A model generated the notes under the pieces. That model was not told where the DNA came from. It searched no databases and saw only the letters and a program-made list of their open reading frames with translations. Below, in pieces: positions 4,227 to 13,115 of a stretch of 64,000 nt of DNA. The position numbers and the translations under genes were made by a program. This DNA is from Candidatus Sumerlaeota bacterium (GTDB taxonomy: Bacteria > Sumerlaeota > Sumerlaeia > Sumerlaeales > Sumerlaeaceae). The number at the start of each line of letters is the position of its first letter. Within the stretch, counting starts at the first letter, position 1. The DNA lies in contig JAAZBM010000013.1 in NCBI GenBank assembly GCA_012513815.1, positions 1 to 64,000 on the forward strand. The letters are read 5' to 3'.

Positions 4227-4250
4227 TGTTTTTGGTAGACCCAAAAAACA

Positions 4251-4380
4251 GAGTTGAGAGTGGAGAGTGGAGTGGTGGACTAAAAGCTATATATATTAAA
4301 TATTGGGCCTATTTGGCTTAGTTGGCTTGGCTGTTAGTGGTAGAGTGGAATGTGGTTGTTTAATTAGTTTAGATGGGGGA
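4251..4380. repeat. Dispersed intergenic repeat, copy 2
   Basis: The core at 4251-4288 reads GAGTTGAGAGTGGAGAGTGG and continues AGTGGTGGACTAAAAGCT. It matches copy 3 (5877-5921) almost base for base, apart from one internal unit. An AT-rich stretch and a GGGCCTATTTGGC segment follow. Together with copy 3 it brackets the DMT transporter gene in direct orientation. Confidence 0.7.
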
Positions 4381-4494
4381 CGAAAGTGTTCTTGGGGAAA
4401 AGCGAAGTCCGAATTCTTCTCTGTTGGTGAAAGATTTAAATTTTGCTTTTCTCTCTGAGCATATGATGAACGCGGTATGGTCAATATGTCTATA

Positions 4495-5499
4495 TCAACA
4501 TAGCTCTGTCCCATTATGAGAATGATGATGCTCCATACCATTACCAATATGGTCATGCGTGAATGTATGTGTATGGGTTGTGCCGTCATGCGTATGCTTA
4601 ATCGTATGTGTATGCAGATGGCTATGATGCGTTAATAACGTATCCAGTACCACCAAGGTGGTTCCGACGAACATGATGAGCAACGCAACTACAAATGTAA
4701 CCGTCAGTGGTTCGCGTAGAACGGCAAGAGAAAGGATAGCACCGATAAACGGAGCAACCGCATAGTATGCGCTTGTTTTTACCGCGCCAAGTTCTTTCTG
4801 CGCGCGGATATATACAAAAATACTCAACCCATAGGCAACAAAGCCAAGTATAAGCGCCAAGAGAAACCATGTGTTTGAGGGAATCGTTTCACCGATTATC
4901 AGCGCTACAATAAATGACCCGAGTCCCGAAAAAATGCCCTTTAGGATGACTATTTTGTAGGTGTTTTTATCGGAGATTTTCCGTGTACAATTGTTTTCAA
5001 ACCCCCAACAAATGCATGCCAAAATTACAAAAATAGAACCGAAAGAAAACTGAAGGCATGATAAATTCTGAAAGGAGAGTAACGCACTCGACAAGGTTAT
5101 TAGGGTAATTGCAATCCAGAGTTTTCGGGAGATGGTCTCTTTGAAAACAATCAGCGCAATGATAGATGTCGCGACAATTTCGGAATTATTGAGTAGAGAC
5201 ACATGGGCTGCAGGTGCTTTTGATAGCCCGAACATAAGCAAAATCGGAGCTGTAATATCAAGCAAAATCATGCCGAGAACATATGGCAAATCCTTTTTAC
5301 TAAGTTTGTTCTCATTTTGCTTAAATCTATGGGGAACAAAAAGATAAACAATCGCAATTCCTATACCAGCACCAAAGTATAAGAACGAGGCTAACATTGT
5401 TGGCTCGATATGAGAGAGCAAAACCTTGGAAAACGGAGTGCTTGAAGCGTAGAATACGGCCGCCAACAACGCTAGTCCAATGGCCGAAACCGCTTTCAT
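4495..5499 (-). CDS. DMT/EamA-family transporter with histidine-rich tail
   Basis: A 334-residue membrane protein with about ten hydrophobic segments arranged as two EamA repeats (about 1-140 and 145-285). It is likely a metabolite or drug exporter of the inner membrane; substrate unknown. After the last membrane segment, residues about 288-330 form a tail very rich in His (repeated HTH, HDH and HHH clusters), which could bind divalent metal or buffer ions. His-rich tails are known on some EamA proteins, so this is not a frameshift. The start has an AAGGA Shine-Dalgarno. Copies 2 and 3 of the dispersed repeat flank the gene. Confidence 0.85.
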   Translation of the reverse strand: MKAVSAIGLALLAAVFYASSTPFSKVLLSHIEPTMLASFLYFGAGIGIAIVYLFVPHRFKQNENKLSKKDLPYVLGMILLDITAPILLMFGLSKAPAAHVSLLNNSEIVATSIIALIVFKETISRKLWIAITLITLSSALLSFQNLSCLQFSFGSIFVILACICWGFENNCTRKISDKNTYKIVILKGIFSGLGSFIVALIIGETIPSNTWFLLALILGFVAYGLSIFVYIRAQKELGAVKTSAYYAVAPFIGAILSLAVLREPLTVTFVVALLIMFVGTTLVVLDTLLTHHSHLHTHTIKHTHDGTTHTHTFTHDHIGNGMEHHHSHNGTELC

Positions 5500-5988
5500 G
5501 GGATTGTTCCTTCTTCAAGTTTTACTAAATTCTGTTTTTTGCAATACAATATTACATAAACAAACGATTTTAGTCGTACTAGAGAGATGACTTTGATTGG
5601 CATGGTCAAGCATTTGCCGACACCGGTGGAGTTCAAGTCGAACACCAACTAGATTTGACACCATCGCGTGGTGCTCAATGAGCAGGCGGCTTTGTGATCG
5701 TCTTGACAGCGATATTCTACATCCTCTTCTGGTAGAATCCTATCCTAAAATATAGCGAGTCCGGGTCGGCGGGGGTAGGCGCCATCGACAAAATACGCAA
5801 CTAAGGAATAGGGCACTAAGCCCAATAAGGCCACTGGACGACTGGGGCGACTAAACAGAGTGGAGAGCTTCAAATAGAGTTGAGAGTGGAGAGTTGAGAG
5901 TGGAGTGGTGGACTAAAAGCTGCTTAATTGAAATTTGGGGTGAATAAAGGACTTATTTGGTATTATTTCTTTCGTGAGGTAAGTAAAA
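5500..5988. other. Intergenic stretch, no gene recognised
   Basis: This holds the promoter side of the DMT gene and, at 5811-5942, copy 3 of the dispersed repeat. A 21-codon ATG-started frame near 5587 has no recognisable product. I see no RNA gene, integrase remnant or terminator. Confidence 0.6.
5811..5942. repeat. Dispersed intergenic repeat, copy 3 (fullest copy)
   Basis: Begins GGGCACTAAGCCCAATAAGG, then GGGGCGACTA, AGAGTGGAGAGCTTCAA (shared with copy 1) and a tandem TTGAGAGTGGAGAG unit. It ends GGTGGACTAAAAGCTGCTTAATT and TTTGGGG. The left part is shared with copy 4 and the middle part with copies 1 and 2. Confidence 0.7.
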
Positions 5989-9005: not shown

Positions 9006-9036
9006 AATTTAACACTCTAATTTGGAAAACGAAACG

Positions 9037-10572
9037 ATGATTTTAGTTCTTGATTTTGGCAGCCAAACCTCACAGCTCATCGCCCGCAAAGTGCGCGGCC
9101 TTGGCGTGTATTCACAGATTATCCCCTTTAGCACACCTATCGACGAGATTCGCAAACTGAACCCGACAGGCATTATCTTCTCGGGCGGGCCGGCATCCGT
9201 GTCGGACGATGGGTCGCCACGGATTGACCCGGCGGTGCTCGAACTGGGTGTTCCGATTTTGGGCATTTGCTACGGAATGCAACTGATGGTGCATATGCTG
9301 GGCGGCGAGGTGCGCGGGCAGAACAGCAGCGAGTATGGCCCGGCAATCCTGCATCCGAGGAAGTCGGATGAGCCGCTACTCGACGGCATCGCGGACAATT
9401 CGAAGGTCTGGATGAGCCACAACGACGCCGCGGTGCGACTGCCCGACGAGTGGCTGACGCTGGCCGGTACGGACAGCTGCGAACAGGCTATGGTGCGCCA
9501 TACCTCGCGGCCGCTGATGGGCGTGCAGTTTCACCCCGAAGTGCATCATAGCGTTTGCGGGCCGCAACTGCTCAAGAATTTTGTCTTCCATGTGTGCAAG
9601 GCCGCAGCCGACTGGAAACTGGAAGATTTCATCGAGAAAACCTGCGATGACATTCGTGCGTTGCTGGCCGGACATCCCGGCTCGCGCATCGTCTGCGCAA
9701 CCAGCGGCGGTGTGGATAGCACGGTGCTGGCGACGCTGCTGCATAAGGCGGCGGGCGACCGGTTCTTGCCCGTATTCGTGGATAACGGCGTTTTGCGTAT
9801 GGATGAAGCCGAAAGTGTCCGGAAAAATTTTCGCGAAAAACTGGGAATCGAACTGACTTTTGCCGATGCTTCGGATCATTTTCTTGATTTGTTGCAGGGC
9901 GTGACTGAACCGGAAAATAAACGCCGGATTATCGGTCGCGAATTCGTGAATGTATTCCTGAAAGAATTGTCCGAAAAAGATTTCCTCGCGCAAGGGACGC
10001 TGTATCCCGATGTGATTGAGTCGGTCAATGTGAAGGGGCCATCGTCCAAGATTAAGACGCACCATAATCGTGTGCCGGAAATTCTGGCGCTGATGGAGCA
10101 AGGCCGTGTCGTCGAGCCGCTCAAGGAGCTGTTCAAGGACGAGGTGCGGGAGTTGGGCGCCAAGCTTGGGATTCCGCACGAGATGCTCTGGCGGCAACCC
10201 TTCCCCGGGCCGGGATTGGCGGTTCGCATCCTCGGCGAGGTGACCCGCAAACGGCTGGATATTTTGCGGCAAGCGGACAAGATTATCGTTGAAGAAATCA
10301 AGGCGGCCGGGCTTTATGAAAAATGCTGGCAATCGTTCGGCGTTCTGCTACCCGTCAAGGCCGTCGGCGTGATGGGCGATGCCCGCACTTACGCCGATGT
10401 GATTGCGGTGCGCGCGGTCGAAAGCGTCGATGCCATGACCGCCGATTTCGCGCATCTTCCTTGGGAAGTCCTTGGAAAAATCAGCTCGCGGATTATCAAC
10501 GAAGTACGCGGCGTCAATCGCGTTGTTTATGATGTGAGCAGCAAACCGCCCGCGACGATTGAGTGGGAATAG
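9037..10572 (+). CDS. guaA: GMP synthase (glutamine-hydrolysing)
   Basis: Converts XMP to GMP with ATP and glutamine. The N-terminal class I amidotransferase domain carries the triad C78 (GICYGMQLM), H166 and E168 (QFHPEVHH). The ATP-pyrophosphatase domain has SGGVDST at 223-229, and the C-terminal dimerisation domain ends in IEWE. The ATG at 9037 is preferred to a TTG at 9022, which has no Shine-Dalgarno. Its last 144 bp are duplicated at 12368-12511, so this 3' end marks the left boundary of a small island and may have been supplied by it. The reading frame is intact. Confidence 0.97.
   Translation: MILVLDFGSQTSQLIARKVRGLGVYSQIIPFSTPIDEIRKLNPTGIIFSGGPASVSDDGSPRIDPAVLELGVPILGICYGMQLMVHMLGGEVRGQNSSEYGPAILHPRKSDEPLLDGIADNSKVWMSHNDAAVRLPDEWLTLAGTDSCEQAMVRHTSRPLMGVQFHPEVHHSVCGPQLLKNFVFHVCKAAADWKLEDFIEKTCDDIRALLAGHPGSRIVCATSGGVDSTVLATLLHKAAGDRFLPVFVDNGVLRMDEAESVRKNFREKLGIELTFADASDHFLDLLQGVTEPENKRRIIGREFVNVFLKELSEKDFLAQGTLYPDVIESVNVKGPSSKIKTHHNRVPEILALMEQGRVVEPLKELFKDEVRELGAKLGIPHEMLWRQPFPGPGLAVRILGEVTRKRLDILRQADKIIVEEIKAAGLYEKCWQSFGVLLPVKAVGVMGDARTYADVIAVRAVESVDAMTADFAHLPWEVLGKISSRIINEVRGVNRVVYDVSSKPPATIEWE
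10429..10572 (+). repeat. Direct repeat A: 3' end of guaA (left island boundary)
   Basis: The last 144 bp of guaA including the stop codon. It matches 12368-12511 with 9 mismatches and no gaps. The first 44 bp are identical, and a second block of 38 bp is also identical. All nine differences fall in third codon positions and are synonymous. Confidence 0.95.
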
Positions 10573-10643
10573 GCTAGGAATTTGAAAAAGCCTGTCCACA
10601 CTGGTATTTCGACGATAGATCCGTTACATCAAAATTCGAAATA

Positions 10644-10686
10644 GAGAGCTAACTGATTTTGACTAAGTCAGTTAGCTCTCTTTATT
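10644..10686 (+). terminator. Terminator downstream of guaA
   Basis: A perfect 13-bp stem, GAGAGCTAACTGA (10644-10656) / TCAGTTAGCTCTC (10668-10680), has an 11-nt loop and is followed by TTTATT. It separates guaA from the convergent AIPR gene and lies inside the island. Confidence 0.85.
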
Positions 10687-10707
10687 ATGAAGCTTTGAAA
10701 GATCTGT

Positions 10708-11904
10708 CTACGACATGGTTGAATAAGCAACCGTCATATACAAGGTCTTCCATATGTTTGGGTCTTTTCCGACAGACTGTGGATTGTTCCCGAGAGCGCG
10801 ACTCATTGAGACTGTTGAATCTACGAGATTCGGACCTGCCTTTTCCAAAACGTCAAACGGATCAGTTTTCCAACAGTAACAATCGTCTTTCTCCTCAAGC
10901 AGAGCGCGAAAAGCACCAAGGATCGGGTAGATAAAGCCAGAAGGAGATCTATATTTCATTTCATTCTCCATAAATTTAGACTTGAATGTCTCCCCGTTCT
11001 TTGGCATCGAGACCCCCTTTATTGCTCCATATCTTTCACTTGGGTTTTTTACGGTATAAAAATCATTCATTTTTACCTCGATCTTGTCATGCAGCATGAA
11101 AATATCTGCCATAATTTCACGCATCTTCACATAGGGGTTTTTCGCATCTTTACCGTGTTCCTTGTGATCGGCTATGTAAAGATCAATACATTTCTTTTTT
11201 GAGCTATAGGAGTTAATGGGCAAGGAGTCTATGTCAGTGTATCTATCAAGATTGAACATATTAAGAATAGCAAGGATGTCTGATACATCAATGTCGCCGG
11301 AGTCGTTCTCCTTAAAGAATACCCTTTTTTTCTTCATGTACGGTTCGTTCGCAAGAGTGTTCTTAATCAAATCAAACCGGTTTTCGAGTTCGGCTATAGA
11401 CTTGTCCTGAACTTGGACAGATGTATTTCGAGCCGCAGCAAGTTCTTGAAAAATATCCTCAACACCTGTGAGGATTTCCAATTTAACATATTGCTCTCTT
11501 GGTTCAAGCTGTTGTCTGTTTTCTAAAATGGTTCTATAAGTATGACCACCATCGACATTGCCATGATACTCAAAATTTTCGAACGTAATAGTAAGTTCAT
11601 TAGCGTAATTATTGTATTTTACGTCTTTAGCAGAAAGAAGTAACCCACGGTTAAGTAGATAAAAGTCTGACTCGCTGGTCTTTGCAAGAGAATCTTTGAT
11701 CTTCTTCACAACATTGGTTGTCATCTTTTGCTCACGTGGATTCGTTTCCATTGGAATATTGTCTGGAATACTCTTCACGTCGCAGATTGCATAGTACATC
11801 TCAGCAGGATGCATTTCGCCTGTTTCTGAGTTGCGATATGGATTTGGTATTTTTCGGAAAGATTCCACTTTGAATGTCAAAGTTTTGCTTTCTTCGTTAT
11901 TCAT
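10708..11904 (-). CDS. AIPR-family abortive-infection/phage-resistance protein
   Basis: A 398-residue soluble protein without signal or membrane segments. Three blocks in family order match the AIPR (abortive infection phage resistance) domain. They are a helix ending in FYLLNRGLLLSAKDV (81-95; family F..NNG...A), NVDGGHTYRTI (116-126; family VNGGQT), and AAARNTSVQVQDKSI (156-170; family NxQ..V...dL). The C-terminal half (about 190-398) is unassigned. A strong AAGGAG Shine-Dalgarno sits eight bases before the ATG. It is preceded by the XRE regulator on the same strand, with a perfect 18-bp palindrome between them. Phage defence is inferred from family and island context; the mechanism cannot be read from sequence. 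Confidence 0.7.
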   Translation of the reverse strand: MNNEESKTLTFKVESFRKIPNPYRNSETGEMHPAEMYYAICDVKSIPDNIPMETNPREQKMTTNVVKKIKDSLAKTSESDFYLLNRGLLLSAKDVKYNNYANELTITFENFEYHGNVDGGHTYRTILENRQQLEPREQYVKLEILTGVEDIFQELAAARNTSVQVQDKSIAELENRFDLIKNTLANEPYMKKKRVFFKENDSGDIDVSDILAILNMFNLDRYTDIDSLPINSYSSKKKCIDLYIADHKEHGKDAKNPYVKMREIMADIFMLHDKIEVKMNDFYTVKNPSERYGAIKGVSMPKNGETFKSKFMENEMKYRSPSGFIYPILGAFRALLEEKDDCYCWKTDPFDVLEKAGPNLVDSTVSMSRALGNNPQSVGKDPNIWKTLYMTVAYSTMS

Positions 11905-11996
11905 GATATTTCTCCTTGTCTTTCAAGACATTATATTTGGATACGCGATATCCATCGCCATCCAGAATTACATATTGCCGTGTCTTGATAATATTC

Positions 11997-12014
11997 AACG
12001 TCATATATGACGTT
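11997..12014. promoter_or_regulatory. Perfect 18-bp palindrome, candidate operator
   Basis: AACGTCATATATGACGTT is fully self-complementary. It lies immediately after the stop codon of the XRE gene and about 90 bp before the AIPR start. An XRE dimer bound here would control AIPR expression. A weaker imperfect palindrome, GATAT-CTT-ATATC, lies at 12316-12328 upstream of the XRE gene. Confidence 0.55.
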
Positions 12015-12230
12015 TTAAACAATATCCTTAAATAATTCGGCCATAGACAGTCCTGTAGCTTCTGCAATCTTCTGACATTGTTCTAATGTTATGCTGTGTT
12101 CACCACGCTCGATACGACCATAGTAAGCACGACTAATCCCGCAAAACTTAGCAAATGCTTCTTGCGTCATATTGCGAGCTTCACGTATTTTTCTAAGGAT
12201 ATCACCAAACTGTTTATCTATCTGTGCCAC
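12015..12230 (-). CDS. XRE-family regulator, restriction-controller-like
   Basis: A 71-residue single-domain helix-turn-helix protein. It contains FGDILRKIREARNMTQEAFA, then GISRAYYGRIERGEHSITLEQCQKIAEATGLSMAELF. The size and the IERGEHSIT...LSMAELF layout resemble the C (controller) proteins that time expression of restriction-modification genes. The frame stays open to a GTG at 12275, but that codon has no Shine-Dalgarno. The GTG at 12230 has GAGG seven bases upstream and gives the usual controller length. It is probably co-transcribed with, and regulator of, the AIPR gene downstream. Confidence 0.85.
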   Translation of the reverse strand: MAQIDKQFGDILRKIREARNMTQEAFAKFCGISRAYYGRIERGEHSITLEQCQKIAEATGLSMAELFKDIV

Positions 12231-12367
12231 ATATTGTCCTCGCTGTAGTTTAAAACATAAATAAACTGTTTTCACTTAACGATTCAAACAGCATATTGCG
12301 CAATCCTTAAAAGACGATATCTTATATCATTTGCCAGCGATGTCGCTTTTCAATATAGTAACAGTCT

Positions 12368-12511
12368 GATGCCATGACCGCCGATTTCGCGCATCTTCCT
12401 TGGGAAGTCCTCGGGAAAATCAGCTCGCGAATTATCAACGAAGTCCGCGGTGTCAATCGCGTTGTTTATGATGTGAGCAGCAAACCGCCTGCTACAATCG
12501 AGTGGGAATAG
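12368..12511 (+). pseudogene. Direct repeat B: orphan copy of the guaA 3' end (right island boundary)
   Basis: 144 bp encoding the same last 47 residues and stop as guaA, at 135/144 identity, but with no start codon or ribosome site. Every difference is silent, so this tail evolved inside a functional guaA. It is most simply the original host tail displaced when the island brought its own. The dispersed host repeat starts eight bases after it, which supports that view. Confidence 0.93.
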
Positions 12512-12519
12512 TTGACAGT

Positions 12520-12633
12520 GGGCAATAAGCCCAATAGGGCAACTAAGAGAATGAGTAGGGCAACTAGTGTCTACTGGGTGACTATGTAGAGTGGCGTGGT
12601 GGATTAGGGCTGTTTTAGTTTGAGTTTGGGGAG
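12520..12633. repeat. Dispersed intergenic repeat, copy 4
   Basis: GGGCAATAAGCCCAATAGGG, GGGCAACTA, AGAGTGGCGTGGTGGATTAGGG and GAGTTTGGGG appear in the same order as in copy 3. The copy abuts the right boundary of the guaA island and overlaps the 3' end of the Lnu-like gene by 19 bp. Confidence 0.65.
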
Positions 12634-13115
12634 AGGGATTTCAGATTCTGTAGGTCTTGTTTGTCTGTCTCGCGGAGGTCGTAGCCCGTGTGGAATGCCT
12701 CTTGTCCTTTGATTGAAATGGCGGGGATGGTACGTCCCGCGTAGGTGACGGTGGTGAAGTAGTCGGCGGGGAATTGGTAGCGACCTCCGGTGGGGTCTGC
12801 TTGTGATGCCGTTCCGTCGGGCATTACTTGGAACGGGTGTATGTCGATGTAGCTCAGCCGTGGATGGTATAGCTCGATGCGGACGGGACGCCAATCGGTT
12901 GTGATTTTGTAGCCGTGCGCGGTTAGTAGGTCAAGTAGTTGTTGTGTGTACGTCGCGTCGAAGTCGATGTCTATGTCGCGGTGTGGTCGCGTCTGGCGGC
13001 CGCATAGCGCATCGACGCCCCAACCGCCGTCGAGCCAGTAGGGTATGCCGGCGGCTTCTATTAGGTCTAGTACGGTGAAAAGGTCTTCTTGTGTCGTAAT
13101 CTCTTTTTGTTGCAC
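12615..13115 (-). CDS. Lincosamide nucleotidyltransferase-like protein
   Basis: A 166-residue protein close in length and layout to Lnu(A)/LinA enzymes that nucleotidylate lincosamides. The nucleotidyltransferase signature is YWLDGGWGVDALCG (26-39) with the metal-binding acidic cluster HRDIDIDFDA. SYIDIHPF, and GQEAFHTGYDLRETDKQDLQN near the C-terminus, are also Lnu-like. It starts with GTG, preceded by AAGGA. Whether it confers resistance or modifies another small molecule is unknown. Its last bases overlap the dispersed repeat, and it sits just outside the guaA island in an accessory strip. Confidence 0.8.
   Translation of the reverse strand: MQQKEITTQEDLFTVLDLIEAAGIPYWLDGGWGVDALCGRQTRPHRDIDIDFDATYTQQLLDLLTAHGYKITTDWRPVRIELYHPRLSYIDIHPFQVMPDGTASQADPTGGRYQFPADYFTTVTYAGRTIPAISIKGQEAFHTGYDLRETDKQDLQNLKSLSPNSN

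Follow-up and report, generated by a model that had tools for sequence, protein, structure and literature searches.

The 3' end of guaA, the gene for GMP synthase, occurs twice in a 64,000-nucleotide stretch of DNA, hereafter the window, from a Candidatus Sumerlaeota bacterium, and the two copies enclose a small AT-rich insert with a gene of the AIPR family and a Cro/C1-type helix-turn-helix (HTH) regulator. The source is a metagenome-assembled genome (MAG) of 1.88 Mb that is 66% complete and divided into 17 contigs, with the window on contig C9. This islet of approximately 1.94 kb was probably acquired recently as a unit comprising the guaA tail of a related species, the AIPR gene and the HTH regulator, and there is about an even chance that host recombination between the 3' regions of two guaA alleles captured it. 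Six comparable islets, located behind guaA or guaB in other genomes, have inserts of 257-877 bp bounded by repeats of 57-251 bp, and the main interest of the finding is this recurring series rather than the single locus in the window.

The final 144 bp of guaA recur as a direct repeat at a spacing of 1939 nucleotides, and the two copies, tail 1 at the present end of guaA and tail 2 beyond the insert, are identical at 135/144 positions with zero gaps, exactly as stated in a preliminary description of this DNA. The pair is the longer of two direct-repeat families of at least 40 nucleotides in the window. The last base of each copy is the last base of the TAG stop codon, the homology ends there, and the sequences flanking the two copies are unrelated on either side. 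All nine differences between the tails are silent third-codon changes and none replaces an amino acid, whereas approximately 75% of codon changes in an unused tail would be expected to do so under neutrality (P = 3e-6 for nine of nine silent if all differences were neutral). Since the differences are silent only, both tails appear to have served as working guaA ends until recently, and their sequences most likely reflect separate histories as functional guaA ends that were joined recently; divergence of this kind points to recombination between relatives rather than to a decaying local duplicate. The insert (10573-12367) is 1795 bp long with a GC content of 0.385, compared with 0.569 in guaA and 0.536 downstream, and contains two clear genes on the minus strand and a hairpin. 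No integrase was found in it, either in the list of open reading frames (ORFs) or by profile search, which bears out the earlier account of an AT-rich, two-gene insert without an integrase.

The DNA to the right of tail 2 has the appearance of native sequence. A short repeat with six further occurrences across the genome (E 3e-6 to 0.04) starts 8 bases past tail 2; the one of these six that was inspected, in the window at 5811-5835, is intergenic. The DNA past tail 1 has no such copy within the window except its own palindrome. The presence of an own-genome repeat after tail 2 makes the right side native-looking and favours tail 2 as the resident guaA end and tail 1 as the incoming one, although a donor of the same genus could carry the repeat too. 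Together with the silent-only differences, this supports the view, already taken in the preliminary description, that integration gave guaA a new tail and moved the old one to the right. No further copy of the islet or its tails was found elsewhere in the 66%-complete genome. The best named relative of the guaA gene, from a Candidatus Sumerlaeaceae MAG, has 68% amino-acid identity over the best segment, and the guaA matches in seven genomes of the same family have 66-72% nucleotide identity. In guaA-downstream stretches of up to 20 kb from 35 other Sumerlaeota genomes, many of them ended by contig ends, the AIPR gene, the HTH gene and the next downstream genes gave only one weak ThiF match.

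A 45-amino-acid guaA-tail query matched 36/40 Sumerlaeota genomes, 377/395 genomes of a second phylum and 170/195 of a third. In the second and third phyla, 75 genomes had more than one match and were rechecked, second matches within long open frames were treated as paralogues, and the counts of same-contig islets are minima. The counts exclude second tails that lie on a different contig or at the end of one (G680, G254 with an in-frame stop, G328 with a frameshift, G469, G527, an extra tail in G344 and a guaB tail in G264), and a lone tail in G156 was also left out. The preliminary description had proposed looking for a second guaA tail downstream of guaA in other genomes, and at least four islets comparable to that in the window were found on the same contig as guaA (G020, G409, G190 and G344). 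Among the matches listed, those farther away on the same contig lie only within longer open frames and are probably paralogues.

These islets differ in size and content. The tails of G020 share 95 identical bases and then end in different stop codons around a 257-bp insert with a 74-amino-acid membrane-like ORF, at a contig end. The order there (L082:4588-4958, L083) is guaA, a small membrane-like ORF, the guaA tail and a second small membrane-like ORF, and the contig breaks at the repeat, where L082 and L083 share approximately 99 bases by eye. G409 has a 251-bp repeat that runs 27 bp past the stop codon and an 802-bp insert with a gene resembling Y1 transposases (E 2.6e-5), and G190 has an 87-bp repeat and an 877-bp insert with a methyltransferase gene. 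G344 has a 57-bp repeat, and its 747-bp insert contains a 103-amino-acid ORF and one that resembles aspartyl proteases. An additional copy of the guaA end of approximately 12 bp, GAATGGGAGTAA, lies directly behind the guaA stop codon of G344 (L132, oriented 2586-2605), and this genome also has a third guaA tail on another contig.

As a control, a 45-amino-acid C-terminal guaB query was run against the same second phylum and matched 376/395 genomes, five of them with two matches; guaB scores are lower than those of guaA, so that short guaB tails are more easily missed. Two same-contig islets were found behind guaB (G236 and G337), compared with at least three behind guaA in the same 395 genomes, while the other double matches were a tail at a contig start (G264) and second long copies (G465 and G501). 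In G236, a 66-bp repeat encloses a 68-amino-acid ORF and an AbiEii-like nucleotidyltransferase (PF08843, E 9e-7). A 142-amino-acid N-terminal fragment of Cas12a (L154:2726-3154; PADLOC E 3.4e-20) lies between guaB and guaA in the same genome, and its first base is also the last of the stop codon in the second guaB tail. In G337, a 90-bp repeat that runs 16 bp past the stop codon encloses a DUF4258-like ORF (E 6.4e-5, just under the cut-off) and a 74-amino-acid ORF. A hotspot restricted to guaA was therefore rejected, since the guaB control yields the same type of islet. In a gene-blind scan of 1.21 Mb, the known cases in the window, G409 and G236 passed, and the two further pairs obtained were tandem paralogues on the other strand, presumably PilT-like and polyphosphate-kinase-like.

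When the seven islets are pooled, the tails differ by 50 silent codon changes, three of them stop-codon swaps, and by only 3 amino-acid changes, two of which come from G236; neutral drift accounts for at most approximately 7/53 of these differences (95% level). Scans of the main ORFs of the seven inserts revealed no tyrosine or serine integrase, the transposase-like gene of G409 being of the Y1 type. In the window the longest identical block is found at the left of the repeat, in G409 around the stop codon and in G337 inside the repeat, and no common crossover core is visible across the seven cases. A shared crossover core was therefore discarded as a candidate, and a crossover in the left 44-bp block of the window, as initially proposed, was not established, given that the longest identical block changes place from case to case.

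Congeners are available for two of the islets. The order is guaA-methyltransferase-holB in G285, guaA, approximately 0.38 kb and holB in G403, and guaA-methyltransferase-tail 2-AT-rich ORF-holB in G190, where holB is the name we assume for the gene downstream of guaA in all three. G190 therefore appears to combine two alternative guaA-holB intervals, each bringing a guaA tail, and the DNA to the right of its tail 2 is missing from G285. The G190 tails differ at a single site, where tail 2 agrees with both congeners. The G190 series speaks for recombination between allelic 3' regions of guaA and cautions that either side of an islet can be the newcomer. In G236, tail 1 differs from the congener G319 at 5 positions and tail 2 at 7, which gives no decision between the tails, and G319 has other genes behind guaB. 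The guaA-holB interval (L131, L200 and L201) carries different small cargo in each of the three congeneric species.

Under host recombination, DNA of a relative, extending from inside guaA into downstream defence-type genes, would enter the cell and recombine with the resident guaA through shared sequence, by a crossover within the tail or upstream of it. At its far end, the fragment would then be joined into the resident guaA, 144 bp ahead of the stop codon, so that guaA would remain whole by taking the donor's ending, and the resident ending would be displaced to the right with the native downstream DNA. Such a path explains the small size of the islets, the variable tail length, the lack of a core, the occurrence at guaB and the tails that end at or near the stop codon. 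Both RecA-dependent integration of circularised linear DNA by a single crossing-over and illegitimate recombination with homology at one end are described in the available part of PMC3240628. Host-recombination integration of this kind, including homology-facilitated illegitimate recombination (PMC3240628, same part), resembles the proposed event in having one homologous and one non-homologous join, a small added segment and no enzyme of an element, and differs in being known from laboratory competence and conjugation assays. No report of natural islets that lack an integrase and are bounded by core-gene tails was found in the open-licence literature, as judged by title or the start of the abstract.

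Several observations weigh against capture by host recombination. No genome of the same genus was in the comparison, and the donor and the empty site are unseen at the window locus. Six of the seven islets, all except that in the window, were found with protein queries, which favour intact tails. The gua genes also seem to be enriched (5/753, compared with 0/~1,050 background genes as a rough estimate; P 0.013), which a site-independent process would not predict. The tails of G344 share no identical run longer than 14 bp, which is short for RecA. The last cargo ORF ends -6 to +3 bp from the second tail in G236, G337 and G344, compared with 23-244 bp in the other islets; in three of seven cases the junction is thus tidier than expected of random fragment ends. 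The homology exceeds the stop codon in G409 and G337 (by 27 and 16 bases), so that an end at the stop codon is not universal. Finally, positions 1-44 of the window repeat are identical and all nine mismatches lie within positions 45-132 (P = 0.033 for nine random mismatches all sparing the first 44 positions), which fits a crossover core, although the block taken alone is a weak feature.

The principal rival, possible but on the whole unlikely, is site-specific integration at the guaA 3' end in the manner of prophage e14 at icd, followed by reduction to a remnant resembling a cis-mobilizable element (CIME), or with an integrase acting in trans. The architecture matches that of e14 in Escherichia coli K-12, in which foreign DNA lies behind an essential gene, the incoming 3' end has been adopted and the old end displaced, and a long, mostly silent repeat is left; the available part of PMC11148124 gives a 165-bp duplication with 12 nucleotide changes and two conservative amino-acid changes. 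However, e14, a cryptic prophage, has an integrase gene, whereas the window insert has 1.8 kb, two genes and no integrase. The same 3' end of the same gene is also a known target of islands, integrative and conjugative elements (ICEs) and integrative and mobilizable elements (IMEs), such as GIsul2, ATE-1, a Brucella IncP island and a streptococcal guaA ICE (PMC9376610, PMC5704250 and PMC4701971, in the portions available). GIsul2 uses GAGTGGGA at the very 3' end (PMC9376610), and the streptococcal repeats contain exactly the 3' end of the gene (PMC4701971). As described in these portions, the elements carry tyrosine integrases and the repeats of streptococcal tyrosine-integrase ICEs measure 12-54 bp, whereas the window repeat measures 144 bp and encloses no integrase. 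The GIsul2 core is present and identical in both window tails, but a crossover there would not copy the 132 bp of gene to its left, which are thus left unexplained. A CIME, as defined in the available text of PMC5704250, is an element stripped of integration and transfer genes that keeps attL and attR; the window islet is likewise repeat-bounded at a gene end and without such genes, but no related ICE or IME sharing its sites was found in its own genome at 66% completeness, and there is no common core. The 44-bp identical block does sit at the left end expected under site-specific integration, and a single tyrosine recombinase (PF00589) was found in the 66%-complete genome, on another contig, in a 463-amino-acid open frame (C10:374051-374662, L151; serine recombinases were not searched). 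A gene near this recombinase resembles what we take to be an S24-type phage repressor. Against site-specific integration stand the integrase-free main ORFs of all seven islets, the lack of a shared core position, the same pattern at guaB, and the counted second tails, which are little decayed and leave little time for the loss of most of an element. In E. coli, a 260-bp guaA-tail query that would miss tails much below approximately 50 bp matched 5375/5426 genomes and gave only two extra tail places. A satellite, as suggested in the preliminary description, or a guaA-specific integration system is unsupported, given an insert without an integrase and the same islets at guaB; of its further suggestion of a decayed island, an undecayed second tail speaks against the idea, while some decay may still have taken place.

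Partial curing would reverse the roles of the two tails, the islet being what is left, on the left side, of a larger resident island. The island would have been trimmed by recombination, downstream of the islet, with DNA of an island-free relative, which was joined within its own guaA tail, so that tail 2 would be the newcomer. This is improbable, even though it is symmetrical with host-recombination capture at the level of sequence, accounts for the small size and the missing integrase, and has a parallel in G190, where tail 2 and the AT-rich ORF to its right are what G285 lacks. The right flank in the window bears the own-genome repeat (with the reservation about a same-genus donor noted above), the ORF list has no obviously truncated gene at the right junction, and in G190 both congeners are nearer to tail 2 than to tail 1, by one base. 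A merger of two population strains in one metagenome contig is very unlikely: an incomplete genome in 17 contigs and the silent-only allelic differences that strain mixtures yield are in its favour, but the right junction joins unrelated DNA into guaA without a shared stretch of k-mer length, so that a real molecule should span it, and the same anatomy is seen in six other genomes. The least credible origin is that the guaA end was duplicated locally in tandem and the AIPR pair inserted afterwards, the alternative that the preliminary description had set against its own reading. Although the copies lie in the same orientation 1.9 kb apart, the repeat stops exactly at the stop codon and does not run on, and the duplication was rejected on the nine silent and no amino-acid differences.

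An AIPR protein that is probably anti-phage or toxin-like forms the cargo of the window islet, together with a Cro/C1 regulator that would control it (Table 1). The AIPR protein matches the PF10592 profile over residues 53-366 with 118.3 bits (curated cut-off 25), and its gene is convergent with guaA across the hairpin. The HTH gene lies upstream of the AIPR gene in the same direction, with a probable GTG start at 12230 that was chosen by eye; for guaA, the mechanical ORF begins at a TTG at 9022, ahead of the ATG start.

Table 1. Features of the guaA islet and its borders in the window.
Feature	Position	Strand	Evidence and remarks
guaA (GMP synthase)	9037-10572	+	ORF; GMP_synt_C E 8.1e-45, GATase E 1.5e-43; ends at present in tail 1
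Tail 1, final 144 bp of guaA, probably the incoming allele	10429-10572	+	Repeat comparison; incoming status suggested by the native-looking flank of tail 2
Hairpin with 17-bp stem, then T-rich DNA, where the guaA and AIPR genes converge	10643-10681		Consensus match; likely terminator (candidate)
AIPR-family protein, 398 amino acids	10708-11904	-	PF10592 E 7.1e-34, above cut-off
Cro/C1 (HTH_3) regulator, ~71 amino acids	12015-12230	-	PF01381 E 4e-19; PADLOC 'control protein' profile E 1.7e-17
AT-rich DNA upstream of the HTH gene, reaching the right junction	12231-12367		No second copy in the window
Tail 2, probable displaced guaA 3' end	12368-12511	+	Matches tail 1 at 135/144, all nine differences silent
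Start of native-looking downstream DNA, short genome repeat	12519-12547	+	Six further places in own genome

AIPR relatives were found in 49/72,556 plasmid records and 3/50,697 phage records, and a profile search found them on five viral contigs. The nearest relative is encoded by a plasmid of Terribacillus (Bacillota) with 51% identity, whereas the copy from a Sumerlaeota genome of the same family has only 37%; the closer match to a plasmid than to a member of the family suggests that the AIPR gene came by distant transfer. An HTH gene adjoins the AIPR gene in 6/7 plasmid regions examined. The Bacillota plasmid pairs comprise the same two neighbours, with AIPR proteins 32-51% identical, but are divergent there and co-directional in the window, and the HTH protein has 31% identity to its best counterpart. 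No integrase, replication or capsid-remodelling genes of the phage-satellite type (P4-like or resembling phage-inducible chromosomal islands) are among the two genes of the insert. Nothing useful was obtained with an islet protein as a single query in genome contigs or viral contigs, or with the first 21 bases of the repeat in viral contigs; PHROGs gave no match for the insert proteins and Rfam nothing at gathering scores. PADLOC gave only a weak AbiU match for the AIPR protein (E 0.0021), and a sequence search against solved structures gave a best E of 0.31.

A structure model of the AIPR protein has a predicted local distance difference test score (pLDDT) of 76 and a predicted template modelling score (pTM) of 0.57. 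Residues 28-165 of the model align weakly with ParB/SspE folds (best Z 5.5, 98 residues, 3.7 A), all seven structural-alignment rows shown being ParB, Noc or SspE, and a Foldseek search of the model gave nothing at E<=0.001. The R-x4-6-H motif, which we take to be that of HEPN domains, is absent from the whole AIPR protein of the window and was the sole HEPN feature checked. According to the available part of PMC3506569, AIPR is linked to abortive infection and DndB, and AIPR proteins are assigned an N-terminal HEPN RNase domain. The Pfam definition of the family does not include this domain. AIPR is also among the genes in antiviral hotspots of phage satellites, as far as the available part of PMC9122126 goes. 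The AIPR-HTH pair may represent a putative phage-defence gene and its regulator, a plausible role that is predicted from sequence.

A gene that strongly matches the aminoglycoside-2''-adenylyltransferase family (PF10706, E 3.6e-58) lies directly to the right of the islet at 12615-13115 on the minus strand. Elsewhere in the window, a second low-GC block (42-43%) at 4250-5940, just past tRNA-Ala, contains an EamA transporter gene (PF00892, E 1.9e-33) flanked by direct repeats of 58 bp (83%) at a distance of 1633 bp.

When DNA integrates at the end of a gene, an integrase is usually held responsible, and the seven islets, two or three of which carry defence-type or toxin-like genes, show no tyrosine or serine integrase; they suggest that modules can be acquired singly via host recombination with a core gene. 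As a tentative generalisation, held with less confidence than the capture of the window islet, small modules behind core genes, defence or toxin-antitoxin-like, might spread between species without a recombinase as 'tail-homing cassettes', for which the 3' end of the core gene would be both homology arm and entry site and a second allelic tail would be left each time. If this is true, core-gene tails would be a readable record of acquisition, for guaA in Sumerlaeota and the second phylum and for guaB in the second phylum, and a simple search for core-gene tails that are present twice would bring recent captures to light, together with the donor allele and the direction, in uncultured phyla without recognised mobile elements.

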